From NCBI RefSeq assembly GCF_017979475.1, contig NZ_JAERIT010000008.1, positions 1 to 64,000 on the forward strand: a stretch of DNA of 64,000 nucleotides, in the 5' to 3' direction. This DNA is from Helicobacter pullorum NCTC 12824 (GTDB taxonomy: Bacteria; Campylobacterota; Campylobacteria; Campylobacterales; Helicobacteraceae). The notes under the pieces were generated by a model, which saw only the letters and a list, made by a program, of their open reading frames with translations, searched no databases and was not told the DNA's origin. Positions 5,818 to 40,504 of this stretch are shown piece by piece; positions within the stretch are counted from its first letter, which is position 1, and the number at the start of each line of letters is the position of its first letter. A program made the translations under genes and the position numbers.

Positions 5818-6909
5818 ATGCAAACACTCAAAAAACCCTACCCCACAAAACAAATCCAAGTTGGAGAAGTCAAAATCGGTGGTGGTGCGCCCATCTCTGT
5901 GCAAAGTATGACTTTCTCCAAAACCGCCAACTTACAAGCCACCAAAGAACAAATTGACAGATTACAACTTGCAGGGTGCGATATTGTGCGTGTGGCTGTA
6001 AGCGATGAAGAAGACGCAAATGCACTCAAACAGCTTAAAAATATGATTTCACTTCCGCTAGTAGCTGATATTCACTTCCGCTACAAACTCGCATTAATTG
6101 CCGCTCAATGGGTAGATTGTATCCGCATAAATCCGGGCAATATCGGCTCAAAAGAAAAAATCAAAGCCGTAGTAGAGGCATGCCAAGAACGAAATATACC
6201 CATTAGAATCGGAGTAAATGCGGGAAGTTTGGAGAAGCAGTTTGAAGAAAAATATGGTGCAACTCCAAAAGGAATGGTAGAATCTGCACTTTATAATATT
6301 AAACTTTTGGAGGATTTTGGATTTAGCAATCTCAAAGTTTCCCTCAAAGCTAGTGATGTAGAACGCACAATGGCAGCTTATAGAATGCTACGCCCTTTGG
6401 TAGAATATCCTTTTCACTTAGGAGTTACAGAAGCAGGGGACTTAGAATCTTCAATGATCAAAAGCTCTATGGCACTGGGTGGCTTACTCATGGAAGGAAT
6501 AGGCGACACAATGCGTGTATCTATCACGGGAGAATTAGAAAAGGAAGTAGAAGTAGCACGCTCCATCTTGCGTTATAGCGGGAGACAAAAGGAAGGAATC
6601 ACCTATATTTCTTGCCCTACTTGCGGGAGACTACAAGCTGATTTGGTGCCAATCCTAAAAGAACTCAAAGAAAGAATGCCAAAAATCAAAACTCCAATGC
6701 AACTCTCTGTAATGGGCTGTGCAGTCAATGCCCTAGGAGAAGCCAAACACGCTGATGTTGCTATTGCCTTTGGAAGTGGAGATGGACTTATCATCAAAAA
6801 AGGTGAAATAGTCGGAAAATACAAAGAATCTGAACTCATCGAAGTTTTTATAAAAGAGGTTTTAAACACAGAACAAGAAATGATAAAAAGCCAAGCAAAA
6901 GGAGAATAA
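5818..6909 (+). CDS. ispG: 4-hydroxy-3-methylbut-2-enyl diphosphate synthase
   Basis: IspG (GcpE), the [4Fe-4S] enzyme of the MEP isoprenoid pathway that converts MEcPP to HMBPP. The 363-residue protein is the short bacterial form. N-terminal TIM-barrel features include [20 protein letters not shown] and RINPGNIG. The C-terminal cluster domain shows SCPTCGR (two Cys) and [11 protein letters not shown] (third Cys) with the conserved Glu in NALGEA. It follows the propeller gene after 3 bp. A C12 tract begins directly after its TAA stop. Confidence 0.95.
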
Positions 6910-6921
6910 CCCCCCCCCCCC
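6910..6921. repeat. Homopolymeric C12 tract after ispG
   Basis: Twelve consecutive C directly after the ispG stop codon, so length changes cannot alter IspG. Such tracts are slippage-prone in Campylobacterota. No intact reading frame crosses it. Confidence 0.9.
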
Positions 6922-21253: not shown

Positions 21254-21748
21254 CTATTTAACTGCCGCTAAAGCCGCATCATAATTTGGCTCATTTGTTA
21301 CTTCACTCACAATTTCCTTATGCACCACCTTACCTTCTGGATTTACTACAAACACAGCTCTTGTAAGCAATCCCTCCAATGGCGAACCTGCCAAAATCAC
21401 ACCATAAGATTCACCAAAAGCCTTGTTTTTGAAATCACTCAACGCCACAACATTTTGAATACCCTCTATGCTACAAAATCTACCTTGTGCAAAAGGCAAA
21501 TCAAGAGAAACTACAAACACTTCAGCATTAGACAAGCTTGCAGCTTTTTCATTGAATTTTCTTGTTTGTGTAGCACACACACCTGTATCAAGTGAAGGCA
21601 CAACATTAATAATTTGAAACTTCCCACTTGCTCCGCCTACGCTTTTTGTGCTTAAATCCCCAGCGATAAGCTCAACTTTGGGTGCGCTATCACCTACATT
21701 GATTTCTTTACCTTTCAAACTAACTGCATTTCCTTTAAAAGTAACCAT
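21254..21748 (-). CDS. tpx: Thiol peroxidase
   Basis: Atypical 2-Cys peroxiredoxin that reduces hydrogen peroxide and alkyl peroxides with thioredoxin. The 164-residue protein has the peroxidatic Cys58 in PSLDTGVCATQTRKF and the resolving Cys92 in GRFCSIEGI, both intact. Its electron donors TrxA and TrxB are encoded at 25580 and 26401. The gene is monocistronic with its own promoter. Confidence 0.96.
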   Translation of the reverse strand: MVTFKGNAVSLKGKEINVGDSAPKVELIAGDLSTKSVGGASGKFQIINVVPSLDTGVCATQTRKFNEKAASLSNAEVFVVSLDLPFAQGRFCSIEGIQNVVALSDFKNKAFGESYGVILAGSPLEGLLTRAVFVVNPEGKVVHKEIVSEVTNEPNYDAALAAVK

Positions 21749-21785
21749 AATTTTATCCTTATTAAAAATTTTTATAAAGATATAT

Positions 21786-21791
21786 TTTATA
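21786..21791 (-). promoter_or_regulatory. -10 box for tpx
   Basis: Minus-strand TATAAA in context GCTACTATAAAATA, 38 bp before the tpx ATG. Imperfect match, but the only candidate close to the gene. Confidence 0.4.
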
Positions 21792-21840
21792 GTAGCTATT
21801 CTAAACTAACAATAAAACCAAATTCTTAATACGGCATATT

Positions 21841-21972
21841 TTCCTTTCTCTTCTCTTAATCTCTTATTCAACCCACACGCTTTTTTTTGCAAACAAAGTA
21901 AGCAAAGGGTTTATAAGGGAATAAATTACAAGACAGAGAGACATTGTAGCTTTGATAATCCCCCCCCCCCCC
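21841..21972 (-). pseudogene. Relic of the 3' end of a poly-G contingency gene
   Basis: Most of the 381-bp tpx-ansB gap is explained by this relic. Read on the minus strand, 13 G (21972-21960) are followed by about 115 bases that align, with few gaps, to the DNA after the G12 tract of the acyltransferase gene (37106-37228). Shared words include ATTATCAAA, CTTACTT, TTTGCAAAA and GTTGAATA. One frame still encodes KATMSLCLVIYSLINPLL..., which matches the off-frame, not the coding frame, of the intact gene. A TAG lies about 21 bp before the tract, so nothing full-length remains. Confidence 0.75.
21960..21972. repeat. Homopolymeric C13 tract
   Basis: Thirteen consecutive C (G on the minus strand) at one end of the relic. 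It lies about 120 bp upstream of the ansB -10 box. Slippage-prone. Confidence 0.9.
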
Positions 21973-22088
21973 GCAGAGAGTTTTTAAAAATTTTCTATCT
22001 TTTTGTATCTTTTAGTAACAAAAAAGTTAAGTTTTAAATTCCCAAAATACAAAACCTTTTTAATCCAACCGCCATTAATAAACAAAAG

Positions 22089-22097
22089 TGCTAAAAT
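22089..22097 (+). promoter_or_regulatory. Extended -10 promoter of ansB
   Basis: TGCTAAAAT, 32 bp before the ansB ATG; AGGAGG follows at the usual ribosome-site distance. Confidence 0.5.
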
Positions 22098-22129
22098 TAA
22101 ATTACAAACTTAATAAATAGGAGGACACT

Positions 22130-23179
22130 ATGAAAAAAATTTTATTGGGGGTGCTTTTCATGCTAGGAATTAGCATAGCTGCTTTTGCTAAACCAAACAT
22201 TGTGATTCTAGCCACAGGTGGGACAATTGCTGGAGAGGCAAAGAGTGATCTTGCAACCACAGGATACAAAGCAGGGAGCGTAAGTGTTGATGTGCTTATC
22301 AAGGCTGTTCCAGAGCTTCAAAATATCGCAAACATTCAAGCAGAACAAATTGCCAACATTGATAGCTCTAATATGACTGATGAAATTTGGCTCAAACTCG
22401 CAAAACGCATCAACGCACTTTTAAAAGATTCCAAAGTTGATGGTATTGTTATCACCCATGGGACAGATACTATGGAAGAAACTGCGTATTTTTTGAATCT
22501 TGTCATCAAAAGTGATAAACCAGTAGTTTTAACCGGTGCAATGCGTCCTGCAACTGCGATTAGTGCAGATGGTCCAAAAAATCTCTACAATGCAGTCAGT
22601 CTTGCTGGAGATAAAAATGCTAAAGGCAAAGGTGTGATGATTGCTATGAATGACAAAATTCACGCCGCAAGAGAAGTTACCAAAACTCATACGCTCAATG
22701 TTGAAACTTTTAAATCTCCAAATAGCGGAGAAATCGGCTATATCATCGATGGAAAAGTCTTTTTTGATACCGCATCAATCAAGCCAAACACTCTAAAAGC
22801 ACCTTTTAGCGTAGAAAATTTAGATTCTTTGCCTAAGGTAGATATTATTTATACTTATTCTAATGATGGCTCAAAAGTCGCTGTTGAAGCGTTTTTAAAA
22901 GCAGGTTCCAAAGGATTGGTTGTCGCTGGAAGCGGTGCTGGAAGTATCCATGAAAATCAAAAAAACTACCTGATTGAATTACTAAAAGATAAAAAATTAG
23001 CAGTAGTAAAAAGCTCTCGTGTAGGCTCTGGAATCGTCCCTCTAAGCGATGAAGAAGTTACACAAGGATTCATCTCTGCAAACAATCTCAATCCGCAAAA
23101 AGCAAGAGTGCTTTTGATGCTAGCTCTTACCAAAACTAGCGATCCTCAAAAAATCGCACAATATTTTGAAGAGTTTTAA
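22130..23179 (+). CDS. ansB: Periplasmic L-asparaginase type II
   Basis: Type II L-asparaginase releasing ammonia from asparagine (and possibly glutamine) in the periplasm. A signal peptide (MKKILLGVLFMLGISIAAFA) precedes the mature protein. Both catalytic threonine motifs are present: ILATGGTIAGEA and VITHGTDTMEETAYFL, plus the conserved GAMRPATAISADGPKNL. The 349-residue length is typical. It ends tail to tail with gpsA, the two stop codons overlapping. In Campylobacter and Helicobacter the secreted enzyme supports amino-acid use and affects host cells (known for the family). Confidence 0.95.
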   Translation: MKKILLGVLFMLGISIAAFAKPNIVILATGGTIAGEAKSDLATTGYKAGSVSVDVLIKAVPELQNIANIQAEQIANIDSSNMTDEIWLKLAKRINALLKDSKVDGIVITHGTDTMEETAYFLNLVIKSDKPVVLTGAMRPATAISADGPKNLYNAVSLAGDKNAKGKGVMIAMNDKIHAAREVTKTHTLNVETFKSPNSGEIGYIIDGKVFFDTASIKPNTLKAPFSVENLDSLPKVDIIYTYSNDGSKVAVEAFLKAGSKGLVVAGSGAGSIHENQKNYLIELLKDKKLAVVKSSRVGSGIVPLSDEEVTQGFISANNLNPQKARVLLMLALTKTSDPQKIAQYFEEF

Positions 23180-24066
23180 CCCATCCTCTTCATCAAATCC
23201 AAAAGGCTTTCTTTTGGATTCTTACCTCCCATTATCAAAGCCACTTCTTTGGCAATGGGGGTATAAATATCATTCTTTTGAGCCAAAGCATAAATCTCTT
23301 TGGAAGTCTCCACACCCTCTGCTACTTCACCCAAACTTTCAAGAATCTCATCTAAAGCCTTATTTTGAGCCAATCCAAGCCCCACTCTAAAATTCCTTGA
23401 AAGCGTAGAATTTGCAGTCAAAAACAAATCCCCAGCACCTGATAAGCCCAAAAAAGTCTCTTCTTCTGCCCCAAAAAACTTCCCAAAACGCGTCATCTCT
23501 ACAAGCCCTCTAGCCACCAAAGAAGCCCTTGCATTATTCCCAAGTCCCATTCCCTCACAAATCCCACTAGCAATGGCAATGACATTTTTATACGCCCCGC
23601 CAATCTCTCCACCCATCACATCACAATTTGCATAAGGCTTGATAAAACTAGGGAATAACCCCAACCATTCTTGTGCATTTTCTAGCTTATTAGAATGCAC
23701 ATTTAACGCACAAGGCAGAGATTGTGCAACTTCTTTGGCAAAGCTTGGACCTGCTAAGAAACTCAAAGTAGCCTTAGGATAAAATTTTTCAAAAATCTCA
23801 CTTACAAAAAGCCCCTTTGCCACTCCCTTAGAAGCTACCAACACCTTAGAATCTTGCGGGATAGGACAATCTTTTAGCCATTCTTCTAATGCAGAACTAC
23901 AAATTGCCACGACAAAAAAATCGCTATCTTGTGCTTCTTGCAAGCTAATTTGATAAGCACAATCAAGATTCCGCCTTGAGATAATCCCTGCTTGATTTTT
24001 CTCACCAAATGCAAAGCACAATGCCCTTCCCCAAGCACCACCGCCAAATACACTTACTTTTGCCAT
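23176..24066 (-). CDS. gpsA: Glycerol-3-phosphate dehydrogenase [NAD(P)+]
   Basis: GpsA makes sn-glycerol 3-phosphate from dihydroxyacetone phosphate for phospholipid synthesis. The 296-residue protein has an N-terminal Rossmann motif VFGGGAWGRAL, FLAGPSFAKEV, the catalytic Lys in GGAYKNVIAIASG, and LGLSGAGDLFLT. It is slightly shorter than the E. coli enzyme, as in other Campylobacterota. Its stop codon overlaps that of ansB on the other strand. Confidence 0.95.
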   Translation of the reverse strand: MAKVSVFGGGAWGRALCFAFGEKNQAGIISRRNLDCAYQISLQEAQDSDFFVVAICSSALEEWLKDCPIPQDSKVLVASKGVAKGLFVSEIFEKFYPKATLSFLAGPSFAKEVAQSLPCALNVHSNKLENAQEWLGLFPSFIKPYANCDVMGGEIGGAYKNVIAIASGICEGMGLGNNARASLVARGLVEMTRFGKFFGAEEETFLGLSGAGDLFLTANSTLSRNFRVGLGLAQNKALDEILESLGEVAEGVETSKEIYALAQKNDIYTPIAKEVALIMGGKNPKESLLDLMKRMG

Positions 24067-24175
24067 TCTTATCCTTAGAGCTATTATTTTACAAAATTAC
24101 AAAAAGAGGAATTTTAATAAAAATATATTAAAATCCCAAAATTTATTTTAAAAATTATCTGCAAAAAGAGTTTTT

Positions 24176-25474
24176 ATGTCTTTAACCAATCTTAGAGAAC
24201 GGCTTAATGGTTTGAATCTTTCCCCTGTTTTTGGATTAGTTACCAAAGTTGAGCAAGGATTCTTATCTGCAAATGGACTTTCACCAAGAATTGGAGATAT
24301 TGTAAGAATCACAAACGAAAATGGCAATAGCATGGGAATGGTAACAACCCTTGAAGCAAATAGTTTCAAAATCACACCCTTTTCTTTTGTAGAAGGCACA
24401 AAGGTAGGTGATAAAGTCTATCTCAACACCAAAGGCTTACAAATCCCTGTTGGTTTAGAACTTCTAGGAAGAGTGATTAATCCATTAGGCGAACCCATTG
24501 ATGGCAAAGGAGAGCTTAGAGCAGAAGGCTTAATGCCTATCATTAGGCAACCCATTGCGGCTATGAAAAGGGGCATGATTGATGAAGTCTTTAGCGTGGG
24601 AGTAAAAAGCATTGATGGACTTTTGACTTGTGGCAAAGGGCAAAAACTTGGAATCTTTGCAGGGAGCGGTGTTGGAAAATCCACTCTAATGGGAATGATT
24701 GTGCGAGGTGCTCAAGCAAAAATCAAAGTTATTGCACTCATTGGCGAGAGAGGTAGAGAGGTGCCGGAGTTTGTCGAGAAAAATCTAGGTGGAGATTTAA
24801 CCAACACTGTTTTAGTCGTCGCTACAAGCGATGATTCACCTTTGATGCGAAAATATGGTGCATTTGCCGCAATGAGTGTGGCAGAATATTTCAAAGCCAA
24901 GGGTGAAGATGTGCTTTTTATGATGGATTCTGTTACACGCTTTGCTATGGCACAAAGAGAGATTGGATTAACCTTAGGAGAACCGCCTACAAGCAAGGGC
25001 TATCCACCCTCTGTTTTAACTCTGCTTCCACAATTAATGGAACGCGCTGGCAAAGAGGAAGGAAAAGGCTCAATTACTGCATATTTCACGGTTTTAGTAG
25101 AAGGCGATGATATGAGTGATCCTATTGCCGACCAAAGTCGGAGTATTTTAGATGGGCATATTGTTTTAGATAGGAGTTTGACAGACTTTGGAATCTACCC
25201 ACCCATTAATATCCTAAACTCCGCTTCAAGGCTAATGGGAGATGTCGCACAAAAAGAACATATTTTAGCCGCAAGGAAATTCCGCCGTCTTTATTCTATG
25301 CTTAAAGAAAATGAAGTTTTAATCCGCATTGGTGCTTATCAAGCCGGGAGCGATAAAGAAATCGATGAAGCCATCGCAAAAAAATCCGATATGGAAGATT
25401 ACCTAAGACAGAATTATGATGAATCTTGGGATTACACTAAGAGCGTCAATCGACTAATTGAACTAATGCAATAA
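24176..25474 (+). CDS. fliI: Flagellar export ATPase FliI
   Basis: ATPase of the flagellar type III export apparatus. The 432-residue protein contains Walker A GSGVGKST, ALIGERGREVPEF, the Walker B stretch DVLFMMDSVTRFAMAQREIG and the family segment PPTSKGYPPSVLTLLPQLMERAG. Length is normal. It stands alone among housekeeping genes, as is common in Campylobacterota where flagellar genes are scattered. It diverges from gpsA over 109 bp. Confidence 0.96.
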   Translation: MSLTNLRERLNGLNLSPVFGLVTKVEQGFLSANGLSPRIGDIVRITNENGNSMGMVTTLEANSFKITPFSFVEGTKVGDKVYLNTKGLQIPVGLELLGRVINPLGEPIDGKGELRAEGLMPIIRQPIAAMKRGMIDEVFSVGVKSIDGLLTCGKGQKLGIFAGSGVGKSTLMGMIVRGAQAKIKVIALIGERGREVPEFVEKNLGGDLTNTVLVVATSDDSPLMRKYGAFAAMSVAEYFKAKGEDVLFMMDSVTRFAMAQREIGLTLGEPPTSKGYPPSVLTLLPQLMERAGKEEGKGSITAYFTVLVEGDDMSDPIADQSRSILDGHIVLDRSLTDFGIYPPINILNSASRLMGDVAQKEHILAARKFRRLYSMLKENEVLIRIGAYQAGSDKEIDEAIAKKSDMEDYLRQNYDESWDYTKSVNRLIELMQ

Positions 25475-25539
25475 AATTACACATAAAACATTTTTTTAAA
25501 TTAATTGATAAAGTTTTAAATTTTTTAAGTTATTTATCG

Positions 25540-25545
25540 TATAAT
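25540..25545 (+). promoter_or_regulatory. -10 box for trxA-trxB
   Basis: TATAAT (TCGTATAATGC), 34 bp before the trxA ATG; GAGGAG gives the ribosome site. Confidence 0.6.
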
Positions 25546-25579
25546 GCTATGGATAAAAATTATTATTTGAGGAGAAAAA

Positions 25580-25897
25580 ATGGCTGGTTATATTGAATTA
25601 ACTGAAGCAAATTTTGATGAAACAATTAAAGATGGTGTAGTAATGGTAGATTTTTGGGCGCCATGGTGTGGTCCTTGCAGAATGATTGCACCTGTAATTG
25701 ACAAATTAGCAGGAGAATATGCAGGAAAAGCTAAGATTTGCAAAGTCAATACTGATGAGCAACAAGAATTAGCATCTAAATTTGGCATTCGCTCTATCCC
25801 TACAATCTTTTTTTACAAAAATGGTGAAAAGGTTGATGAGATGATTGGTGCAGCAACAGAAGCTGCTTTCAAAGATAAAATCGACAAATTACTTTAA
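25580..25897 (+). CDS. trxA: Thioredoxin
   Basis: Cytoplasmic thioredoxin of 105 residues with the active site WCGPC (Cys30 and Cys33) and the cis-proline in IRSIPTIFF. It donates electrons to Tpx and other reductases. It is the first gene of trxA - small membrane protein - trxB; in H. pylori trxA and trxB are adjacent. Confidence 0.98.
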   Translation: MAGYIELTEANFDETIKDGVVMVDFWAPWCGPCRMIAPVIDKLAGEYAGKAKICKVNTDEQQELASKFGIRSIPTIFFYKNGEKVDEMIGAATEAAFKDKIDKLL

Positions 25898-25927
25898 TAG
25901 TACAATGTTAGGAAAATCCCAAAATCA

Positions 25928-26398
25928 ATGAAAAAATGTTGTCCGGGATTCCCTATTGCCTTTATGATAGTTTTTATCATAGGGGCTTTTTTGTATTATT
26001 TTTATTCGTTTAAATCAATTGCAGAAATTGATTTTGGCAAAGATGTCTTTTACCAAACAAAAGGCGGAGAAATTAGCCTTTTTGAACCAAAAGCAACAAA
26101 ATATCAATTATGCTTTTATAGTTCTTATATTCCAAAATGGGAAGAAACATTGGCATTAAAACAAAATATACCTTTATTGGCATTAGATATCTATCAGCAA
26201 GGCGAAATCCAAAAGCACAGCGTTTTTAACCTAAAGGTTTCTAGTGAGATTTTATTGAAACTTATACACAATTTCAATTTAAGAGATTTGCCTAAATGCT
26301 TTATAATAGCACAAGATAAAGAAAATTCAATGGTTTATAGATATTTAAGAGATGATGGAATCTATAAAGTATTGAATTTTAATAAATTAGGAGAATAA
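25928..26398 (+). CDS. Membrane-anchored thioredoxin-like protein without CXXC
   Basis: A 156-residue protein with one N-terminal membrane helix (about 8-27, [18 protein letters not shown]) and a short MKKCCPGF start. The remaining soluble part resembles a degenerate thioredoxin fold: a strand leading into [18 protein letters not shown] where CXXC would be, then IPLLALDIY, and [10 protein letters not shown], where the Pro could be the cis-proline. No CXXC is present. It lies 2 bp before trxB and 30 bp after trxA. The fold is my inference; no function is assigned. Confidence 0.6.
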
Positions 26399-26400
26399 TT

Positions 26401-27339
26401 ATGATAGATTTAGCAATTATTGGTGGTGGTCCTGCTGGACTAAGTGCTGGATTATATGCCACTAGAGGTGGATTAAAAAATGTTGTAATGTTTGAAAAAG
26501 GAATGCCCGGTGGGCAGATTACCTCAAGTAGTGAAATGGAAAACTATCCCGGAGTAGCCGAAGTAAAAAGCGGTTTTGATTTTATGATGCCATGGCAAGA
26601 ACAATGTTTCCGCTTTGGTCTTAAACATGAGATGAAAGAGGTTTTAAGAGTAAAGAAAACCGGAGATTATTTTAATATTATCTTTACTGATGGGAGTCAA
26701 GAAGAAGCAAAAGCGGTTATTGTTGCCACAGGGGGCAGCCCAAAACGCTCTGGTGTTAAAGGCGAAGATACCTACTGGGGCAAAGGCGTAAGCTCTTGTG
26801 CAACTTGCGATGGTTTCTTTTATAAAAACAAAGAAGTTGCCGTACTTGGTGGTGGAGATACCGCAGTAGAAGAATCCATTTATCTAGCTAAAATTTGCTC
26901 CAAAGTTACACTAATCCACAGAAGAAATGAATTTAGAGCTTCTCCAATTACTCTTCAAAGAGCCAAAAATGAGCCAAAAATTGAATTTTTAACCCCCTAT
27001 GGAATTGACGAAATTTGCGGAGATAATTCTGGAGTTACAGGGCTAAAACTTAAAAATCTTCAAGATAGCAGCACAAAAGAAATCAATATCGATGGAATCT
27101 TTGTGCTTATCGGTTATAATGTCAATAACTCTGTGCTTATACAAGAAGATGGCACAGCATTATGCGATATTAATGAAAGCGGACAAGCTATTGTGAATCT
27201 AAAAATGGAAACAAGCATTCCGGGCTTATTTGCAGCTGGAGACTTGCGTAAAGATGCACCCAAACAAGTCGTATGTGCCGCCGCTGATGGTGCAACAGCA
27301 GCCTTAGCAGCGATTGAATTCATCGAGCATCACAAATAA
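26401..27339 (+). CDS. trxB: Thioredoxin reductase
   Basis: NADPH-dependent FAD enzyme that reduces TrxA. The 312-residue protein has the FAD motif [15 protein letters not shown], the redox pair CATC (Cys133, Cys136), the NADPH motif [12 protein letters not shown] and the C-terminal FAD motif GLFAAGDLR. Complete and of normal length. Confidence 0.97.
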
Positions 27340-27358
27340 CTATATTTAAAGGATAACA

Positions 27359-28129
27359 ATGTTGAAAATTGGAGTTTTTGGAGCGGGCGGAAGAGTTGGA
27401 AAACTAATCGTTGATCTTGCTAAAAATAGTAATGAAATCAAATTAGAAAGCGTATATGCAAGAAGAGAGCTAGATTTTTCTATTGAACCGGGCACACTTA
27501 TCACAAGCGATTTAAAAGTCTTTTTGGAAAGCTGCGAAGTGATTATTGACTTCACCACAGCACAAGGCACACAACAACTTTTAGAAGTAGCCCTACAATA
27601 CCCAAAACCCATTGTTATAGGAACTACAGGCTTAGAATCTCACCATGAAAATCTCATCAAAGAAGCTGCAAAAAAAATGCCTATTTTGTATGCTAGCAAT
27701 ATGTCGTTAGGAATTGCTATTCTCAATAAAGCTATCAAGCTTGTTGCAAGCACATTGCGTGACTTTGATATTGAAATTGTAGAAACTCATCACCATTTCA
27801 AAAAAGATTCTCCAAGTGGAACTGCATTAAAACTTGCAAAATCTTGTGCAGAAGCTAGAAATCTTGATTTAGACAAAGTAAGAATTAGCGGAAGAAATGG
27901 AAATATCGGGGCTCGCTCTAAAGATGAAATTGGTGTAATGGCATTACGCGGAGGCGATGTTGCTGGAATCCATAATGTTGGATTTTATGGCGAGGGAGAA
28001 TATTTGGAATTTATCCACACTGCCACTTCAAGAGTTACTTTTGCACAAGGTGCCATCAAAGCAGCTCTTTGGCTAAAAAATCAGCCTAGCGGTTTATATA
28101 GCATTGAAGATTCGCTAAATATAGGATAA
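27359..28129 (+). CDS. dapB: 4-hydroxy-tetrahydrodipicolinate reductase
   Basis: DapB of the diaminopimelate/lysine pathway. The 256-residue protein shows the Rossmann motif GVFGAGGRVGK, VIGTTGL, ASNMSLGI and the signature ETHHHFKKDSPSGTALKLA with catalytic His and Lys. It follows trxB after 19 bp and precedes purF by 4 bp. Confidence 0.97.
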   Translation: MLKIGVFGAGGRVGKLIVDLAKNSNEIKLESVYARRELDFSIEPGTLITSDLKVFLESCEVIIDFTTAQGTQQLLEVALQYPKPIVIGTTGLESHHENLIKEAAKKMPILYASNMSLGIAILNKAIKLVASTLRDFDIEIVETHHHFKKDSPSGTALKLAKSCAEARNLDLDKVRISGRNGNIGARSKDEIGVMALRGGDVAGIHNVGFYGEGEYLEFIHTATSRVTFAQGAIKAALWLKNQPSGLYSIEDSLNIG

Positions 28130-28133
28130 ACTA

Positions 28134-29504
28134 GTGGAAAATAGAAATTGGAATGAAGAATGTGCAGTAGTTGGCGTATATAATGCCCCAAATGCTGCAA
28201 GTATCGCTTATTACTCATTATTCTCTATGCAACACAGAGGGCAAGAAGCCACCGGTATTGCTTCAAGCAATGGAGAAAAAATCACCGCTATTAAAGATCA
28301 CGGATTAGTAACAGATGTTTTTTGTGATGAAACACTAAAAAAACTCAAAGGCTTTAGTGCTGTTGGACACAATCGATATGCTACTGCTGGGGAAGATTCA
28401 CTAAGTGATGCACAGCCAATATTTGCACGCTATGATTTAGGCGAAATTGCAATTGTGCATAATGGTAATCTTACAAATGCCGAAAAAATACGCAATGAGC
28501 TAATCAAAGAAGGCGCTATCTTCCAAAGTCACATGGATACAGAAAATCTTATTCATCTTATTGCCAAATCCAAACATGAGAATCTAGCAGAACGCATTAA
28601 AGAGGCTGTATTGAAGGTAGAGGGTGCGTTTTGTTTTATTATTTTAAGTCGCAAAAAAATGTTTGTAATTCGCGATAGAAATGGATTCCGCCCTTTAAGT
28701 CTTGGAAAAATCAAAAACAATGATGGAAGTATAGGCTATATTGTAGCAAGTGAAACCTGTGCTTTTGATTTGGTGGGAGCAGAATATATACGCGATGTTG
28801 AAGCAGGGGAGATGCTAATACTTTCAGAAAAAGGCATTGAAAGTCATCATATTATGCCCAAAAACCCTTATCCTTGTGTTTTTGAATATGTTTATTTTGC
28901 GCGCCCAGATAGCCATGTATTTGGAAGATTAGTTTATAATATTAGAAAAGCAATGGGAGTAGAGCTTGCAAAAGAAAATCCTATTGATGCTGATTTGGTA
29001 ATCCCAGTCCCCGATAGCGGTGTAGCAGCTGCTCTAGGCTATTCCCAACAAAGCGGGATACCTTTTGAGCTAGGCATTATTCGCAACCACTATGTGGGAA
29101 GAACATTTATTGAACCCACACAACAAATACGGGAACTAAAGGTAAAATTAAAGCTCAATCCCATAAAAGAACTTATTGAAAATAAACGCATTATCGTCAT
29201 TGATGATTCTGTAGTTAGGGGGACGACTAGCAAACAGATTATAAAAATCCTACGCGATTGCGGTGCCAAAGAAATCCATATGAAAATCTCTTCTCCACCA
29301 ACTATTTCCCCCTGTTATTATGGAGTAGATACGCCAAGCAAAGAAGAGTTAATTAGTGCAAAAATGAGCAATGAGGAAGTTTGTGAGTTTATTCAAGCTG
29401 ATTCTCTTTCGTTTTTATCCTTAGAAGGTTTAAAGCGAAGCATAGGGATAGAAAACTATCAATTTTGTCAAGCCTGTTTTGATGGCAATTACATTGTAAA
29501 ATAA
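28134..29504 (+). CDS. purF: Amidophosphoribosyltransferase
   Basis: PurF makes phosphoribosylamine from PRPP and glutamine, the first step of purine synthesis. The start is GTG. Cys10 (in NWNEECAVVGVYN) would become the N-terminal nucleophile after removal of a 9-residue propeptide. The glutaminase domain includes GHNRYATAG; the PRPP-binding loop is IIVIDDSVVRGTTSKQI. The last Cys residues (CQACF) match the type with a C-terminal Cys pair. 456 residues, intact. Confidence 0.96.
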   Translation: MENRNWNEECAVVGVYNAPNAASIAYYSLFSMQHRGQEATGIASSNGEKITAIKDHGLVTDVFCDETLKKLKGFSAVGHNRYATAGEDSLSDAQPIFARYDLGEIAIVHNGNLTNAEKIRNELIKEGAIFQSHMDTENLIHLIAKSKHENLAERIKEAVLKVEGAFCFIILSRKKMFVIRDRNGFRPLSLGKIKNNDGSIGYIVASETCAFDLVGAEYIRDVEAGEMLILSEKGIESHHIMPKNPYPCVFEYVYFARPDSHVFGRLVYNIRKAMGVELAKENPIDADLVIPVPDSGVAAALGYSQQSGIPFELGIIRNHYVGRTFIEPTQQIRELKVKLKLNPIKELIENKRIIVIDDSVVRGTTSKQIIKILRDCGAKEIHMKISSPPTISPCYYGVDTPSKEELISAKMSNEEVCEFIQADSLSFLSLEGLKRSIGIENYQFCQACFDGNYIVK

Positions 29505-29512
29505 GGTCTCCC

Positions 29513-30475
29513 TTGAAACAAATGCTTACTTTTGGACGCTATTGCAAGCGTCGCTTTGGAGAAAGAGTTAGAAAAGTCCCCATTGCATTAGCAGGTTTTA
29601 CTTGCCCAAATATCGATGGAACAGTAGCTAAGGGAGGTTGCATTTTTTGCAAAAATGAAAGTTTTTCCCCCACTTTAGAACATGAGCCAAAAGCCCCTCT
29701 AAAAGTAAATCCTAATATGCAAGAAAATCCATTATTGCCTATGCAGCTAAAGCAACTTCACAGCCAATACCAATGGCAAACTGATTTTCACAAAAATAAA
29801 TTTGGGGTTGGAAAATATATGATTTATTTTCAATCATTTACCAACACCTATGCACCCTTCTCTACATTGCAAAAACTCTACACAGAAGCACTCAATCTCC
29901 CTAATGTAGTTGGAATGTCTATTGGCACTAGAACTGATAGTGTGAATTTGGAATTGCTAGACTATCTTGCAGAATTGCAAAAAATTAAAGGACAAGAGAT
30001 TTGGATAGAATATGGAATCCAATCTGTTTATGATGAGACACTAAAGCTCATCAACCGAGGACATGGAACAGAAGAAATGGAATATTGGATTTCACAAACC
30101 AAACAAAGAGGTTTGAAAGTCTGCTCACATATCATCTATGGCTTACCTAATGAAACCAAAGAAATGATGCTACACAGCCTCAATAAAGTATTAGAATGGG
30201 GAAGCGATGGAATCAAAGTGCATCCTCTCTATATTATAGAAAAAACCATTTTAGCCCTTATGCACAAAAAAGGTGAATACAAGCCAATTCCACTGAATGA
30301 TTATATTGAATTAATTGTAGAATCCCTCAAAATCATTCCACAAAATGTCGTAATTCATCGCGTGAGTGCTGGGGTTAGGAATGATACCCTCATTGCACCT
30401 AAATGGTGTTTTGACAAAAACATTCAAATGCGTGCAATCCGTGATGCACTAAGAAATGCAGGGATTGAATATTAA
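29513..30475 (+). CDS. TIGR01212/YhcC-type radical SAM protein
   Basis: A 320-residue radical SAM protein. The cluster Cys residues sit in the spaced form typical of the YhcC/TIGR01212 family: C31 in FTCPNIDG, then C43 and C46 in GGCIFC. Later family segments include YFQSFTNTYAP, GMSIGTRTDS, EYGIQSVYDETL and KVHPLYII. The reaction is unknown. Start is taken at TTG 29513; ATG 29522 is an alternative. Likely co-transcribed with purF (8-bp gap). Confidence 0.85.
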   Translation: MKQMLTFGRYCKRRFGERVRKVPIALAGFTCPNIDGTVAKGGCIFCKNESFSPTLEHEPKAPLKVNPNMQENPLLPMQLKQLHSQYQWQTDFHKNKFGVGKYMIYFQSFTNTYAPFSTLQKLYTEALNLPNVVGMSIGTRTDSVNLELLDYLAELQKIKGQEIWIEYGIQSVYDETLKLINRGHGTEEMEYWISQTKQRGLKVCSHIIYGLPNETKEMMLHSLNKVLEWGSDGIKVHPLYIIEKTILALMHKKGEYKPIPLNDYIELIVESLKIIPQNVVIHRVSAGVRNDTLIAPKWCFDKNIQMRAIRDALRNAGIEY

Positions 30476-30484
30476 AGGGAGAAT

Positions 30485-31054
30485 ATGCCATCTTATATTC
30501 CAAAACAACAAGCTAGATTAAACCCAAAAGAATGCGTTTTTATCTGCATTGATATACAAGAAAAACTCTTTAATGTTATGCAAAATAAAGATAAAATGCT
30601 AAAAAACGCCAACAAACTCTTAGAAGGTGCAAAAATCTTTGGAGCAAACTCCATTGTATTAGAGCAATACCCTCAAGGCTTAGGCAGAGCATTGTTAAGA
30701 AATCAAGAAAATCCCAAAGAATCTTTAATAGAAAAAATTTCTTTTAGTGCTTTTGGGGAACAGAATTTTTGTAAAGCCCTAGAAAAATTACAAGCTACAA
30801 CCCTCATTTTATTTGGCATTGAAACTCATATTTGCGTCAAAGAAAGTGCATTTGATGCCAAAGAAAAAGGCTTCAAAGTCCTAATTGCAGAAGATGCTTG
30901 CTCTTCTAGGGAATTACACAGCCATTCCCTAGCCATACAAGAAATGCGTGATTTAAAAATCCAAATTTCTAGCACAGAGAGCATTCTTTTTTCGTTTTTA
31001 TTACACGCCAAAGAAACGAACTTTAAAGCCATTAGCACATTGATTAAAAACTAA
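30485..31054 (+). CDS. Isochorismatase-like cysteine hydrolase
   Basis: A 189-residue hydrolase of the isochorismatase/nicotinamidase superfamily. The proposed Asp-Lys-Cys triad is D23 (FICIDIQEKLF), K84 (EKISFSAF) and C117 (FGIETHICVKESAFDA). Substrate is unknown; close relatives in many bacteria are annotated only as YcaC-like hydrolases. It lies 9 bp after the radical SAM gene. Confidence 0.85.
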   Translation: MPSYIPKQQARLNPKECVFICIDIQEKLFNVMQNKDKMLKNANKLLEGAKIFGANSIVLEQYPQGLGRALLRNQENPKESLIEKISFSAFGEQNFCKALEKLQATTLILFGIETHICVKESAFDAKEKGFKVLIAEDACSSRELHSHSLAIQEMRDLKIQISSTESILFSFLLHAKETNFKAISTLIKN

Positions 31055-31132
31055 ATACCAAAGCAAAAAATCAAATAAAAAATGTTATACTAAAAATGTA
31101 TCAAAAAAATCTTATCAAACAAGGATAATAAA

Positions 31133-31438
31133 TTGCCAAAACAAGCACAGCTTGAAAATACAACTGAAACCTTAGAAAAAACCACAGAACCTATCCGATA
31201 CAAAGTTATTTTATTAAATGATGATTATACAACCCAAGATTTTGTTATTGAAGTTTTACAAAAAGTCTTTCACAAGGATTTTGAGGCTTCTCTCAATCTT
31301 ATGTTGCAAATCCACCACAATGGACGCGGAATGTGCGGAATCTATCCCTATGATATTGCCGAAACAAAAGCATTAGAGGTGCGAAAAATGGCAAAAGCAA
31401 AACAATTTCCACTAAGAGCAATTTTAGAAAAACTATAA
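31133..31438 (+). CDS. clpS: ATP-dependent Clp protease adaptor ClpS
   Basis: ClpS delivers N-end-rule substrates to ClpAP. The 101-residue protein has YKVILLNDDYTTQDFVIEVL with the substrate-binding Asn-Asp, the His in QIHHNGRGMCGIY, and the C-terminal helix region. Start is TTG with AAGGATAA upstream. clpA follows after 11 bp, the expected pairing. Confidence 0.95.
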   Translation: MPKQAQLENTTETLEKTTEPIRYKVILLNDDYTTQDFVIEVLQKVFHKDFEASLNLMLQIHHNGRGMCGIYPYDIAETKALEVRKMAKAKQFPLRAILEKL

Positions 31439-31449
31439 AAGACAAACCC

Positions 31450-33663
31450 ATGATAGAAATTAGCAAAGAATTAAATTATGTTTTACAAAATGCACAAAAC
31501 CGCGCTAAACACTTAGGGCATGAATACCTCACATTAGAGCATATCTTTCAATCCCTACTTGAAAACCCAACCATCATCAAAGCCTTGCAAGAATGCGGAG
31601 GCAATATTCAAACTATTAAAAGTCAAATCGAGCGTTATTTATTGCATTTTTTACAGCCCTACTCTAATAGTAATGAAACGCCTATGGAAACTCTAGCTGT
31701 TACGCGAGTTATTGAAATTATGATAAGCCATGTCAAAGGCTCTCAACGCAAAGAAGCACAAGTGGGGGACTTATTAGCAGCAATCCTAGAAGAAGACAAA
31801 GCCTTTTGCACACAAGTTTTAAAAGCCCAAGGGATTACTCGCCTTAATATTTTAGAATACATTACAGAAAATATACAATCCCTACAAACCCCAAAAAACA
31901 AAAATGAAAATCAGCAAGAAAGTATTTTAGAAAAATACTGCATCAACCTCACAAAAGAAGCCAAAGAAGGCAGAATCGATCCTATTATCGGCAGAGATGC
32001 AGAGATTGAGCGATGCTTAGAAGTATTGCTTAGACGCAAAAAAAATAATCCTCTTTTAGTAGGTGAGCCCGGTGTTGGTAAAACCGCAATTGCAGAAGGT
32101 TTGGCACTTAAAATTATCCAAAAAGATAATCCGCTTTTGGGCAATGAGATTTTTGCACTCAATATAGGTGCATTAGTGGCAGGGACAAAATATAGAGGGG
32201 ACTTTGAAAAACGCATCAAAGCCTTAAGTGATGAAATGTTGGAGCGAAAAAATGCAATTTTATTTATCGATGAGATTCACACACTCATCGGTGCTGGTGC
32301 TACAAGTGGCGGGAGTATGGACGCTAGCAACCTCTTAAAACCTATGCTTGCAAGTGGAAAATTCAAATGTATTGGTGCTAGCACTTATGCAGAATACAGA
32401 AACTTTTTAGATAAAGACAAGGCATTTTCAAGACGCTTTGCCAAAATTGATGTTGATGAACCAAGTCAAGAAGAGACGATTTTAATCCTACAAGGGCTAA
32501 AAAAATACTACGAAAAACACCACAATGTAATCTACCCATTAGAATCAATTAAACTAGCCGTAGAACTCTCTAGCCGCTATCTACACGATAGATTCTTGCC
32601 TGATAAGGCAATTGATGTGATTGATGAAGTTGGTGCAGCCTATAAACTTGCAGGCAAAAAAGGCAAAATATCTCTTGCAAGCATCAAACAAATGGTAGCC
32701 AAAATGGCAAAGATTCCAGAAATTGAAGCCACAAAAAACGACAAATCCCTTTTGAAAAATCTACAAAAACACTTACAAAGCAGAATCTTCGGACAAGATC
32801 TCGCAATTACAGAAATCGTAACTGCACTCAAACGCAACAAAGCTGGGCTTAATGCACCAAATAAGCCTATCGGTTCTTTTCTTTTTAGCGGACCAAGTGG
32901 AGTTGGGAAAACAGAATTAGCAAAAGAAATTGCCAAAGCATTAGGGATTAATTTTGAACGCATTGATATGAGTGAATATATGGAAAAATACTCCATTTCT
33001 GGACTTATCGGTGCTCCTGCAGGATATGTAGGGTATGATAAAGGGGGGATTTTAACAGAAATGATCAAAAAAAATCCACATACACTTTTGCTGTTAGATG
33101 AAATTGAAAAAGCCCACCCTGATGTTTTAAATCTTTTCTTGCAGGTAATGGACAATGCAAAATTAACTGACAACAATGGAGAAAGTGCGGATTTCTCTTC
33201 AGTGATTCTTATTATGACCTCTAATGTTGGCTCCAAAGAAGCCCCAACTCTTGGATTCACACAAGATTCTAATTCCAAATTCCAATCAGCCATCAAAGAT
33301 AGTTTTTCACCAGAATTTAGAAATCGCCTTGATGCAATCATTGCCTTTAATCCTTTAAACAAGCAAGAAATACTCAAAATTGTGGATAAAAACATTCAAG
33401 ATTTAAATCAACAAATCGCAAATAAAAATATAGAAGTGATTTTAGATAAAACCGCCAAAGAATACCTAGCCCAAATAGGCTTTAATCAAGAATTAGGAGC
33501 AAGACCTCTAGCATTGAAAATTCAAGAAAAAATCAAAAATACTTTGAGTGATTTAATGCTTTTTGGGGAATTGCAAAAGGGCGGAAAAATCACTTTCTCC
33601 CACTCTAATAAAAGCGATACACTTCAATATAAAATCTCTCCTAACAAAGAAATGAAGAAATGA
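31450..33663 (+). CDS. clpA: ATP-dependent Clp protease ATPase subunit ClpA
   Basis: Hexameric unfoldase that feeds ClpP. The 737-residue protein has the N-terminal Clp repeat domain (about 1-140, with LGHEYLTLEHIFQSLLE), a first AAA+ module with Walker A GEPGVGKT near residue 205, a second with GPSGVGKT near 483, and IGAPAGYVGYDKGGILTEM. No long M-domain is inserted, which separates it from ClpB. Its stop overlaps the next start by 4 bp. Confidence 0.95.
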   Translation: MIEISKELNYVLQNAQNRAKHLGHEYLTLEHIFQSLLENPTIIKALQECGGNIQTIKSQIERYLLHFLQPYSNSNETPMETLAVTRVIEIMISHVKGSQRKEAQVGDLLAAILEEDKAFCTQVLKAQGITRLNILEYITENIQSLQTPKNKNENQQESILEKYCINLTKEAKEGRIDPIIGRDAEIERCLEVLLRRKKNNPLLVGEPGVGKTAIAEGLALKIIQKDNPLLGNEIFALNIGALVAGTKYRGDFEKRIKALSDEMLERKNAILFIDEIHTLIGAGATSGGSMDASNLLKPMLASGKFKCIGASTYAEYRNFLDKDKAFSRRFAKIDVDEPSQEETILILQGLKKYYEKHHNVIYPLESIKLAVELSSRYLHDRFLPDKAIDVIDEVGAAYKLAGKKGKISLASIKQMVAKMAKIPEIEATKNDKSLLKNLQKHLQSRIFGQDLAITEIVTALKRNKAGLNAPNKPIGSFLFSGPSGVGKTELAKEIAKALGINFERIDMSEYMEKYSISGLIGAPAGYVGYDKGGILTEMIKKNPHTLLLLDEIEKAHPDVLNLFLQVMDNAKLTDNNGESADFSSVILIMTSNVGSKEAPTLGFTQDSNSKFQSAIKDSFSPEFRNRLDAIIAFNPLNKQEILKIVDKNIQDLNQQIANKNIEVILDKTAKEYLAQIGFNQELGARPLALKIQEKIKNTLSDLMLFGELQKGGKITFSHSNKSDTLQYKISPNKEMKK

Positions 33664-34418
33664 AAAATTTTTCTTGGGACTGCATAAAATATCCTGCCGC
33701 AATTTATCGCAGTAGCGGATATTTGCATGAAATTAGCGAAATTGAAAAAAATAGCTTTGAATCCCTCCACAATCTCCAAAAAGAAATCAAACTTTTGTGT
33801 GCAAACACAGAGGCTTTTCTTTTTGAAAATTTGGGAGTAAATGTCCTGCTTTGGGGTGCTAGAGGTTGTGGAAAATCTTCACTCATCAAAGCGCTTTTGC
33901 CAAAATATGCCAAAGATGGCTTAAGAATCTTGCAAATTCTCAAACAAGATTTAGAAATTTTGCCCGAAATTTTTGACTTTCTCCGCACAAAACCTTATAA
34001 ATTCATCATATTTTGCGATGATTTAAGCTTTGATGAGGGCGATAAAGAATACAAAGCCCTAAAAACTATCTTAGAAGGTAGCATCGAATCTTTCCCACAA
34101 AATATCCGCATTTACACCACCTCTAATCGTCGCCATTTAATGCCAGAATTTCATGATGAAAATGAACTTTTTGGATTTGAAGGCAACGAAGATAAAATCG
34201 CACTTTTTGATAGATTTCCTCTTTGTATCGGTTTTTATACTTATGGTAATCAAGAATATTTGGAGATTTTAGAAAACTACTTCAAAGAATCCCCACAAGA
34301 ATGGGAAAAGCTCAAAACAAAAGCAATTTGGTTTGCAACCCAAAGAGGTTCAAAAAATCCAAGAGTGGCTGCACAATTTTTTAAACTTTACAAAAGCGGC
34401 TTAATTGATCTTATTTAA
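33660..34418 (+). CDS. DUF815-family AAA ATPase
   Basis: A 252-residue P-loop ATPase. Walker A is GARGCGKSS within NVLLWGARGCGKSSLIKALL; Walker B region is FIIFCDDLSFDEGD; YTTSNRRHLMPE follows as a typical DUF815 sensor segment. The family is of unknown role, though predicted AAA+. It overlaps clpA by 4 bp, so it may be made together with the Clp unfoldase. Confidence 0.85.
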   Translation: MKNFSWDCIKYPAAIYRSSGYLHEISEIEKNSFESLHNLQKEIKLLCANTEAFLFENLGVNVLLWGARGCGKSSLIKALLPKYAKDGLRILQILKQDLEILPEIFDFLRTKPYKFIIFCDDLSFDEGDKEYKALKTILEGSIESFPQNIRIYTTSNRRHLMPEFHDENELFGFEGNEDKIALFDRFPLCIGFYTYGNQEYLEILENYFKESPQEWEKLKTKAIWFATQRGSKNPRVAAQFFKLYKSGLIDLI

Positions 34419-34427
34419 GGAGAAAGA

Positions 34428-35255
34428 ATGATTAAAAAATGTTTATTCCCAGCAGCAGGATATGGAACGAGATTCTTACCAGCTACCAAAGCAATGCCAA
34501 AAGAAATGCTACCCATTGTCAATAAACCGCTCATTCAATATGGCGTAGAAGAAGCCATAGAGGCTGGAATCTTTAATATGGCGATTGTAACAGGGAGGGG
34601 CAAACGCTCTTTGGAGGATCATTTTGATATTAGTTATGAATTAGAGCACCAAATCCAAGGCACAAGCAAAGAAGACTATCTAAAAGAAATTCGCCATATT
34701 CTTAATACTTGCACCTTTTCTTATACGCGACAAATGGAAATGAAAGGCTTAGGGCACGCGATTTTAATGGGCGAAAACCTCATTGGCAATGAGCCTTTTG
34801 CAGTCGTTTTGAGTGATGATTTGTGCGATAATGAAGGTGGCGTTGGTGTGTTATCCCAAATGCGTAAAATCTATGAAAAATACCGATGCTCGATTGTAGC
34901 AGTAGAAGAAGTCTCCAAAGAAGAAGTTAGCAAATATGGAGTAATTTCCGGTAGAGAAGTGGATAATAATACCTTTATGGTAGATAATATGATTGAAAAA
35001 CCAAAACCACAAGAAGCTCCAAGCAATCTAGCAATCATAGGGCGTTATATCCTAACACCTGATATTTTTGAGATTTTAAAACACACTAAGCCCGGCAAAA
35101 ATGGCGAGATTCAAATTACAGATGCCCTGCTAGAGCAATGCAAAAAAGGCATGGTTTTAGCCTATAAATTCCAAGGCAAGCGTTATGATTGTGGAAGTGT
35201 TGATGGGTTTGTAAAAGCCACTAATATTTTTTATCAAAAATTCCAAGGCAAGTGA
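34428..35255 (+). CDS. galU: UTP-glucose-1-phosphate uridylyltransferase
   Basis: GalU makes UDP-glucose for lipopolysaccharide and other surface sugars. The 275-residue protein begins with the nucleotide-binding FPAAGYGTRFLPATKAMPKEM and has VVLSDDLC, GVISGREV, IEKPKP and FQGKRYDCGSVDGFV. H. pylori has the same order galU-(HP0647)-murA. Confidence 0.96.
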   Translation: MIKKCLFPAAGYGTRFLPATKAMPKEMLPIVNKPLIQYGVEEAIEAGIFNMAIVTGRGKRSLEDHFDISYELEHQIQGTSKEDYLKEIRHILNTCTFSYTRQMEMKGLGHAILMGENLIGNEPFAVVLSDDLCDNEGGVGVLSQMRKIYEKYRCSIVAVEEVSKEEVSKYGVISGREVDNNTFMVDNMIEKPKPQEAPSNLAIIGRYILTPDIFEILKHTKPGKNGEIQITDALLEQCKKGMVLAYKFQGKRYDCGSVDGFVKATNIFYQKFQGK

Positions 35256-35704
35256 TGTATAATCTTAATTTTTATCTTTTTATTTGGATTGCGCTTTTTG
35301 TGAGTATGCTACCCTTTATGCTGCTCTCTAGTGCTTTTTTGATTTTGGGCAAAATCCAAGCTTATCTTGAAGCACAAAAAAGCCGTGAAAAAATGCTAAA
35401 AAATATCCGTTATCTTATCTCGCTATTGCAAAATAACCCCGATAAAGAAACTTTGGATGAGGCTTTGGATTCTTTTAAAAAAAACTTTCTTGTTTTTGGC
35501 AATCTCAAAAAAGACAACAAAGACTACCAAGATAGAATGGATTTCATCTCTGCACTAGCGTGGTGTCCTTTGATTGATATTGATAGTGTAGCACGATACA
35601 GAGAAGAATTTATCAAAGCAAATCCGAATTTTAAAAAAGAGATTGAAACAATTATTAGTTCTGCTTTAAAAAACCGCGAAAAGAGCGAAAAAGATAAGAA
35701 ATAG
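35255..35704 (+). CDS. Conserved membrane protein, HP0647-like
   Basis: A 149-residue protein with one N-terminal membrane helix (about 3-28, LFIWIALFVSMLPFMLLSS) and a charged helical cytoplasmic part. Function unknown. ATG 35255 overlaps the last base of the galU stop codon; GTG one codon earlier is possible. Position between galU and murA equals HP0647 in H. pylori. Its own neighbour on the right is an inserted acyltransferase absent from that H. pylori arrangement. Confidence 0.7.
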   Translation: MYNLNFYLFIWIALFVSMLPFMLLSSAFLILGKIQAYLEAQKSREKMLKNIRYLISLLQNNPDKETLDEALDSFKKNFLVFGNLKKDNKDYQDRMDFISALAWCPLIDIDSVARYREEFIKANPNFKKEIETIISSALKNREKSEKDKK

Positions 35705-35723
35705 AGGAAATCAAAGGAATAAA

Positions 35724-37229
35724 ATGCAAAAACATCTTAAGGAAAATGGCAATATTATTTATGGAGATTTAACCAAACAAGTTAATTTTAAATGCGATTT
35801 TAAGGGGAAAAATAACATTGTATTTTTTGCTGGGGGAAGCAGGAATGTGAATATAACGTGTCATGGAAATAATGCATTAATTTTTATTGGTAATAATGTT
35901 AGGGCAAATGGTGGCATTAGTATATGTAGTGATGGAGTGTGCTTTGTTGATGATTCTTCTAGTTTTAATGGAACTACAATGCGTGTTTATGAAGCAAAAA
36001 ATATTATTTTTGGTAGGGATTGTATGTTTTCATGGGGGATTTGGCTTTCTACCTGTGACCACCATTTGATTATAGATTCTACAAGCAATCATAGAATTAA
36101 TTTTTCAAAAAGCATTTACATCGGCGACCATGTTTGGTGCGGACAAGAATCAAGCATACTAAAAGGCTCTTTTATTGCCTCTGGAGCTATTGCGGGTGCA
36201 AAAACTTGTGTCGCCTCCAAACAATATTACTCAAATACAATCAATGCAGGAATGCCTGCTAAAGAAGTAAAACAAGGTGTTTTTTGGCTAAGAGATGACC
36301 CCACTGCTGGGAACTGGACTAAAGAACAAACCGCACAAAACATTCATAAAGAAATAGACGACTTCAAATACACTTATGATAAATCTCAATTCCTTTCTCC
36401 AAAAGCCATAGAATCAAAACTCGATTCTCTAAATACTGCCTATGAAAAACTTGAATTTCTCTATGATGCTCTCTATTGCAACAAAAATAAAAATCGCTTT
36501 GCTTATTTCAAAGATTGCCAATACGATATTCCCTTGCCAAAATACGAAAAAAGATTCAAAAATCTCAACTTTACAGAAATCAAACCAGAGCCTATTACAC
36601 CTTCCAAACCAGAGCCTACACCACAAGAATTAGAAATCAAATCCCTCAAGGCTTCTCTTGATTCTACAAAGAAACAATTAGAATCTAAAAATAAAATCTT
36701 AGAATCTATGAATAAAACTTTAGAATCCCAAACAAAAGAAATGGATTTTACTCTCCACTATGGCACAGCAAAGAATAGAATCCACAACCACCTCTCTTAT
36801 AAATTAGGTAAAGCAATGATAGAAAATTCTAAAAGTATTCTAGGATATATTAGAATGCCTTATGTGTTATCTTATATTAAAGAACAACACAATAAAGAAC
36901 AAAAACAATACCAAGAACAAATCAAAAAGAATCCTAATCTAAAACTTCCAAAACTAGAATCTTATAAAGATTACAAAGAAGCCTTAAAAGAAAAAGAATG
37001 TTTCACTTATAAATTAGGGGAAGCATTTATTAGAGCAAATACTCTTAAGAGCAAAAATAACATAAACAACAATACTAATAATATTAGTGGGGGGGGGGGG
37101 CAGATATTATCAAAACCACACTATCTCTCTACCCTACAATCTATTCTCTACAAACCCATTGCTTACTTCAAATTTGCAAAAGAAGTGCGTGAGTTGAATA
37201 GGGAATTAGCATTAAAAAGGAAAGGATAA
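35724..37229 (+). CDS. Phase-variable hexapeptide acyltransferase-like protein
   Basis: A 501-residue protein. Residues 1 to about 195 form a left-handed beta-helix of the hexapeptide acyltransferase type ([65 protein letters not shown]), as in O-acetyltransferases of surface sugars. About 215-345 is helical with a Pro-Glu repeat ([15 protein letters not shown]) and a coiled coil. The C-terminal part repeats a YKLGxA motif ([13 protein letters not shown] and [12 protein letters not shown]), seen in Helicobacter/Campylobacter surface-sugar proteins. A G12 tract encodes SGGGG near residue 456; this length keeps the frame open. It interrupts the galU-HP0647-murA order, suggesting insertion. Substrate unknown. 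Confidence 0.8.
37089..37100 (+). repeat. Homopolymeric G12 contingency tract
   Basis: Twelve G inside the acyltransferase gene, in frame as GGGG. With one G less the frame stops at TGA 37195-37197; with one G more at TGA 37190-37192. Either change replaces most of the last 42 residues. Confidence 0.95.
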
Positions 37230-37236
37230 GACAATA

Positions 37237-39437: not shown

Positions 39438-39448
39438 AGGAAGATAAG

Positions 39449-39982: not shown

Positions 39983-39987
39983 GAATT

Positions 39988-40064
<77 letters not shown>

Positions 40065-40099
40065 ATAAGAATTATTAAAAAATTGAAAGATTTTGAAAG

Positions 40100-40174
40100 T
40101 GGCTGGGGTACAAGGATTCGAACCTCGGAATGGCTGGACCAAAACCAGCTGCCTTACCGCTTGGCGATACCCCA
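40100..40174 (-). tRNA. tRNA-Gln (UUG)
   Basis: A 75-nt cloverleaf on the minus strand with acceptor stem TGGGGTA/TACCCCA, anticodon TTG in loop TTTTGGT, T loop GTTCGAATC, discriminator G and encoded CCA. It lies 35 bp before the initiator tRNA and is likely co-transcribed with it. Confidence 0.95.
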
Positions 40175-40192
40175 ACAAATTTAAGAAGTGAA

Positions 40193-40198
40193 ATTATA
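40193..40198 (-). promoter_or_regulatory. -10 box for tRNA-Gln and tRNA-fMet
   Basis: Minus-strand TATAAT (GGCTATAATTT) ending 18 nt before the tRNA-Gln 5' end. Confidence 0.6.
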
Positions 40199-40448: not shown

Positions 40449-40462
40449 AATAGAAACTCTTG

Positions 40463-40468: not shown

Positions 40469-40504
40469 CCCTCACATTTACAAATTAATTACATGGTATA
40501 ACTT

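Follow-up and report, generated by a model that had tools for sequence, protein, structure and literature searches.

In the gap of 381 bases between tpx and ansB of Helicobacter pullorum NCTC 12824 a run of 13 G followed by a decayed tail is found on the minus strand, and we consider it very probable that this relic represents the decayed 3' part of a gene that has been lost and that belonged to a multi-copy family of transferases. The gap belongs to a stretch of 64,000 nucleotides (positions 1 to 64,000 of contig NZ_JAERIT010000008.1, here called the window), which also carries a living member of the family (Table 1). The relic is the 3' end of a gene and not a gene itself, a real fossil of an ordinary sort, derived from a phase-variable gene of a known kind.

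Table 1: Features of the window that are discussed in the text (positions as in the window).
Feature	Position	Strand	Evidence or remark
tpx (Pfam Redoxin), downstream of the relic	21254–21748	-	Pfam match
tpx leader, conserved with G003–G005	21752–21816	-	local alignment 60 (G003) and 54 (G004), raw scores without shuffles
Decayed tail of the relic, homologous to the final ~120 bases of the living gene	21842–21959	-	alignment, shuffles, window scan
G13 tract of the relic (C13 on the plus strand), 5' limit of the similarity	21960–21972	-	sequence, alignment
ansB upstream region, no similarity to the upstream part of the living gene	21973–22129	+	alignment
ansB (Pfam Asparaginase), other side of the relic	22130–23179	+	Pfam match
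Living member of the family, made up of a hexapeptide acyltransferase part, the shared C-terminal domain, the tract and the tail	35724–37229	+	absent here in G003–G005
Shared C-terminal domain of the living gene	36747–37043	+	matches in 16 of 19 genus genomes
G12 tract of the living gene	37089–37100	+	sequence
Tail of the living gene, to which the relic is homologous	37101–37229	+	alignment

A copy of the poly-G tract with its tail had been claimed at this place in the initial annotation, with a pairwise alignment as the check, and this alignment bears the claim out. When the reverse complement of positions 21841–21959 was aligned with positions 37101–37229, both tracts being left out, a score of 76 was obtained, far above that of 2000 shuffled sequences of the same dinucleotide composition (mean 16.3, standard deviation 2.5, maximum 33). 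Of the 119 bases of the relic 118 are included in the alignment, which has 93 identical and 20 differing positions in addition to 13 gap positions and extends to a few bases from the living gene's stop codon. Scanning the window on both strands with 1596 overlapping segments of 160 bases gave scores above 35 only for segments overlapping the relic or the living tail, so the copy is real and its tail is homologous to that of the living gene. The similarity also starts at the tract and is absent upstream of it, just as had been described: similarity to the living gene 5' of the relic tract was sought by alignment against shuffles and none was found, the score being 25 against a shuffle mean of 20.9 and a maximum of 29 in a second set of 300 shuffles.

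The reading frame of the relic has decayed, as gaps in comparison with the living tail change the frame. In any frame at most 13 stop-free codons lie upstream of the tract and 35 downstream, and with such a short stretch in front of it the tract is not located inside an open gene, as it would be in a gene with C-terminal phase variation. The suggestion that the open frame of the relic matches an off-frame of the living gene is right in part, since by eye its first half follows one off-frame and its second half the other. The frame of 35 codons continues from the tract and might be taken as a hint that the relic still codes for a small protein or an RNA, which we regard as extremely improbable in view of the several gaps against the living tail, a stop in that frame four codons upstream of the tract and a length of about 26 residues at most when read from a start codon. 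The relic probably does nothing now. The same tail, the frameshifts, the missing upstream frame and family remnants at the same place and in the same orientation in three relatives (G003–G005, see below) all support the alternative given in the initial annotation, that a sister gene has left its dead 3' end in the gap.

The living gene shows what such a gene looks like when intact. Its G12 tract is preceded by 473 stop-free codons, and 46 codons lie between the start of the tract and the stop, an arrangement typical of phase variation by a 3' poly-G tract; the three frames after the tract code for 42, 30 and 31 residues, that is for alternative C-termini. A Pfam search with the living protein found no family, and the acyltransferase part (residues about 80–185) is recognized by NCBIfam hexapeptide models, all of these matches being under their cut-offs. 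The shared C-terminal domain (residues 348–445) is matched by NF058596, the model for the CJJ1420 family of MeOPN transferases, with 85.9 bits against a curated cut-off of 600 and over 98 of the 596 model positions. As this match is confined to the domain and lies far under the cut-off, it points to a shared domain and not to membership in that family. The living acyltransferase gene (window positions 35704–37237) lies exactly between two genes that adjoin each other in G003–G005.

At an E-value of 0.001 the C-terminal domain was matched in 16 of the 19 genus genomes, from 1 to 21 times in each and 6 times in this genome, and from a longer list 68 matches, largely the stronger ones, were examined. 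Among these 68 copies 43 possess a G9–13 tract no more than 120 bases behind the domain match, 15 a GG motif without tract and 8 other ends (some with an interrupted tract), while two are cut by the end of a contig; L246 was counted in the ‘GGY’ class, although its end differs from the WxxGGY type. The number of tracts was derived from the match coordinates, and a cruder motif rule, which gave 39 of 68 (72 loci, four of them without motif), was discarded as it had chosen the wrong site in some loci, e.g. L145 and L146. The three frames after the tract were nevertheless read in the 39 copies from the motif rule, of which 38 remained, as L138 is truncated where its contig stops. In 36 of these 38 copies, which are not independent as they include near-identical copies from one genome and two beheaded-looking ones, the longest frame and the most basic one coincide; L211, which lacks a long tail, is a tie, and L092 is an exception. 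The assembly shows the longest frame in 14 of the 38, L211 among them, and about one third is the expectation for free slippage among three frames.

The domain is not bound to one type of catalytic part. The copy L134 of G003 carries this end behind a different front, as only residues 312–500 of the living protein match this copy, and its front part resembles, as we assume, a sulfotransferase. The C-terminal end is thus a shared module. Copies of the domain are also found in Campylobacter, where six of 11 loci (L119, L121, L123, L125, L131 and L132) carry G8–G9 after it, and this run sits where copies without a tract have a WYKGGY-like motif. When one pair of copies per genome was compared, the 3' ends turned out to be 94–100% identical over 227–408 bases in eight of 14 genomes, and the pairs from the remaining six, this genome included, were just 71–84% identical. 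The high identity in the eight genomes suggests that the 3' ends of the family are likely to recombine between copies.

A different origin of the relic would be a tract and tail that move or recombine by themselves as one unit and were inserted between tpx and ansB, as had also been proposed. The similarity beginning exactly at the tract of the relic would fit such a unit, and so would the near-identical gene ends with tract that G013 carries on two contigs (96.5% over 227 bases). The distribution of the tail argues against it. This genome has 38 long G tracts (at least 9 G) and the tail is present only at the living gene and the relic, the other 36 tracts being without it (35 were scored downstream and reached 26 at most, and the third tract of the window was covered by the scan); the further tract-plus-tail copies for which a genome-wide search had been suggested were thus not found among the 38 tracts. 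For this the stretches around the tracts were read, because a nucleotide search of the whole genome with the living tail returned the gene itself and 22 matches at chance level (best E 0.055), missed the known relic and is therefore too insensitive. Furthermore, the 5' limits of the remnants vary: the copy on contig C28 of G013 begins inside the tail without a tract, and the remnants of G003–G005 begin inside the C-terminal domain. In G013 tails occur on four contigs, two with tract, one without and one starting inside the tail. The block common to two copies of a genome extends over about 200–410 bases in 13 of 14 genomes and over 769 in the other and includes the C-terminal domain. Repeated copies with constant ends, by which a mobile element would be recognized, are therefore lacking, with two tail locations for 38 tracts and no constant 5' end across genomes, and we regard a travelling unit as very unlikely. 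In the pairs from G003 and from this genome, which differ in their tail types, the main common block ends where the domain is nearly complete, about 10 and 50 bases short of the tract, respectively, so that exchange may often take place around the tract.

A closer look at the neighbourhood supports the reading of the relic as the end of a lost family gene. The relatives G003, G004 and G005 are the nearest ones with a tpx match, which is 90% identical compared to 80–84% in the other 14. Their gap upstream of tpx holds a 3' remnant of the family on the tpx strand, which starts within the C-terminal domain and comprises the end of this domain followed by a WYKGGY tail without tract. Aligned with the relic it scores 23 in each of the three genomes, which is background when compared to 18–25 in the other 14 genomes. 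As it has the other type of tail and does not align with the relic, one common insertion is not required. The remaining 14 genomes that have tpx show a different gene, which we take to be tsaD-like, after a short gap (the frame was read in G010 and the 13 others were judged by eye). G013, an assembly of about 210 contigs, gave no tpx match. We also tried to explain the 157 bases between tract and ansB as an old ansB leader, but the observed score was reached by 119 (G003), 73 (G004) and 18 (G005) of 1000 shuffles, which is not significant for the first two and weak for G005. With the similarity being that weak the junction is not fixed, and the breakpoint could lie anywhere in 21973–22129.

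For the larger gene order we use the names ribBA, hemH and metY, which we presume to be the correct ones in this neighbourhood. In G003–G005 tpx adjoins ribBA and not ansB, and the block from ansB to ribBA (window positions 22130–41536, about 19 kb) is inverted in this genome relative to them, the living acyltransferase gene being absent there. The relic lies at a synteny breakpoint relative to G003–G005. The other end of the block is less simple: as metY adjoins ansB in G003–G005 and hemH adjoins ribBA in this genome, a single clean inversion cannot explain both block ends, and a single inversion from the G003 order was accordingly rejected, since the ribBA–hemH end does not fit and more than one step is needed. 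No match to metY was found in this genome at E 1e-60, an absence that is uncertain as the genome is 93% complete; metY is present in 17 of the 19 genus genomes, G007 being the other one without it. In G004, G007 and G012 hemH is directly followed by a gene related to the acyltransferase part, which indicates that family genes occupy different sites in different species.

Gene remnants are an ordinary kind of pseudogene at rearrangement breakpoints. The relic resembles them in being a frameshifted 3' fragment at a synteny break and differs from them in the uninterrupted G13 tract at its edge. Taking these observations together, the following model might explain how it arose. Living members of the family combine varied catalytic parts with one C-terminal domain, followed in many of them by a poly-G tract and a tail, and slippage at the tract would choose among three C-terminal ends. 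One member would once have been located upstream of tpx, on the tpx strand. The similar ends of the family are natural substrates for recombination, both for an exchange of ends and for rearrangements between copies, and such a rearrangement or a deletion could have taken everything up to about the tract and left tract and tail beside the upstream region of ansB. In the version that we prefer, recombination between family copies would have made the breakpoint by cutting the gene upstream of tpx, with loss of its portion ahead of the tract and decay of the rest since then.

Slightly odd for old dead sequence is the unbroken G13 next to a tail in which 20 of 113 aligned bases are mismatched. It could mean that the tract has come to serve as a length switch in front of ansB or tpx, i.e. 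for transcriptional phase variation, as poly-G tracts associated with promoters are listed for H. canadensis (PMC2823697, Table 1) and one weak promoter-like match (21930–21959, plus strand) ends at the base adjoining the tract. Yet the tract is 157 bases away from the start of ansB and 211 from that of tpx, the three promoter-like matches are close to the shuffle mean of 1.5 (standard deviation 1.3), and none of the other 17 genomes with tpx has a G or C run of 7 or more within 600 bases upstream of it. Other remnants of the family are also informative here. Seven broken-looking loci were read, and three of them, L245 (G001), L246 (G008) and L247 (G010), look beheaded as judged by the extent of similarity; L245 and L247 keep tracts of G12 and G13. 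Copies that look beheaded can thus retain their tracts without any function being required, and the uninterrupted tract of the relic is no sign of use, so that we regard the switch as very unlikely. Of the remaining loci L241 (G018) has stop codons within the domain and a G12 tract after it, L223 and L240 either retain a larger portion of the gene or are damaged in another way, and the tail fragment of G013 (L094) has another gene behind it. A C10 run and a G12 run are found about 250 bases apart in the beheaded-looking end L245 of G001 (positions 836 and 1099 in reverse strand numbering).

C-terminal phase variation by 3' poly-G tracts has been published for Helicobacter canadensis (Snyder et al. 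2010, PMC2823697), and that paper lists eight such genes. One of them, HCAN_1332 (Table 2 therein), encodes 445 amino acids and has a G12 tract followed by 17, 19 and 30 residues in the three frames. The copy L134 of G003 also shows G12 and 17, 19 and 30 residues, with an open frame of 456 residues or 445 from the first methionine, and from this agreement in tract, protein length and tail lengths both are almost certainly the same gene. Sequencing reads of the HCAN_1332 tract range from G10 to G13 (PMC2823697), which gives some support to slippage in the family, even if the authors note that the sequencing method struggles with such runs. As far as described there, the H. canadensis genes and the living gene are alike in having a poly-G run of at least 10 near the 3' end, slippage at which alters only the C-terminus. 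In contrast to that description, the tract analyzed here follows a 3' domain common to many genes, and a dead copy is present. A word search of PMC2823697 gave no hit for ‘recombin’, ‘duplicat’, ‘paralog’ or ‘pseudogene’, and in a limited search of open papers for a 3' cassette common to Helicobacter genes this was the only one directly on the subject.

Another parallel comes from Campylobacter jejuni, where the MeOPN transferases cj1421c and cj1422c are described as phase-variable and as sharing a common region of about 1000 bp with frequent recombination (PMC6321876). According to the same paper, these two genes are the only evidence in Campylobacter for similar tract-flanking sequence by recombination between loci. 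Our family resembles these genes in having a shared region that probably recombines, and also through the NF058596 match to the shared C-terminal domain, a match that is limited to this domain.

The relic itself is ordinary, and the part worth following is the shared and probably recombining 3' end that bears the tract. The setting of the relic suggests that C-terminal phase variation is partly a family property of a gene end shared in 16 of 19 related genomes, and that such ends recombine and leave remnants, here at a point of rearrangement. With this it becomes testable how hypermutable tracts spread between genes. A wider proposal, which we find nearly as easy to believe as to doubt, is that domain, poly-G tract and basic tail form a recombining 3' cassette in dozens of genes of this Helicobacter group, with otherwise unrelated catalytic parts. 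Copying of gene ends would then have spread C-terminal switching, inverted copies would break chromosomes, and beheaded ends like the relic would be the scars. Variation of protein sequence by repeats has reportedly been studied in the gonococcus as well.

Two further observations on G tracts were made in this genome. A C12 tract (window positions 6910–6921) directly follows the stop codon of a gene for 363 amino acids (5818–6909), and contig C11 with its 282205 bases has G tracts at both ends (44–57 and 282196–282205), so that the assembly seems to break at tracts.
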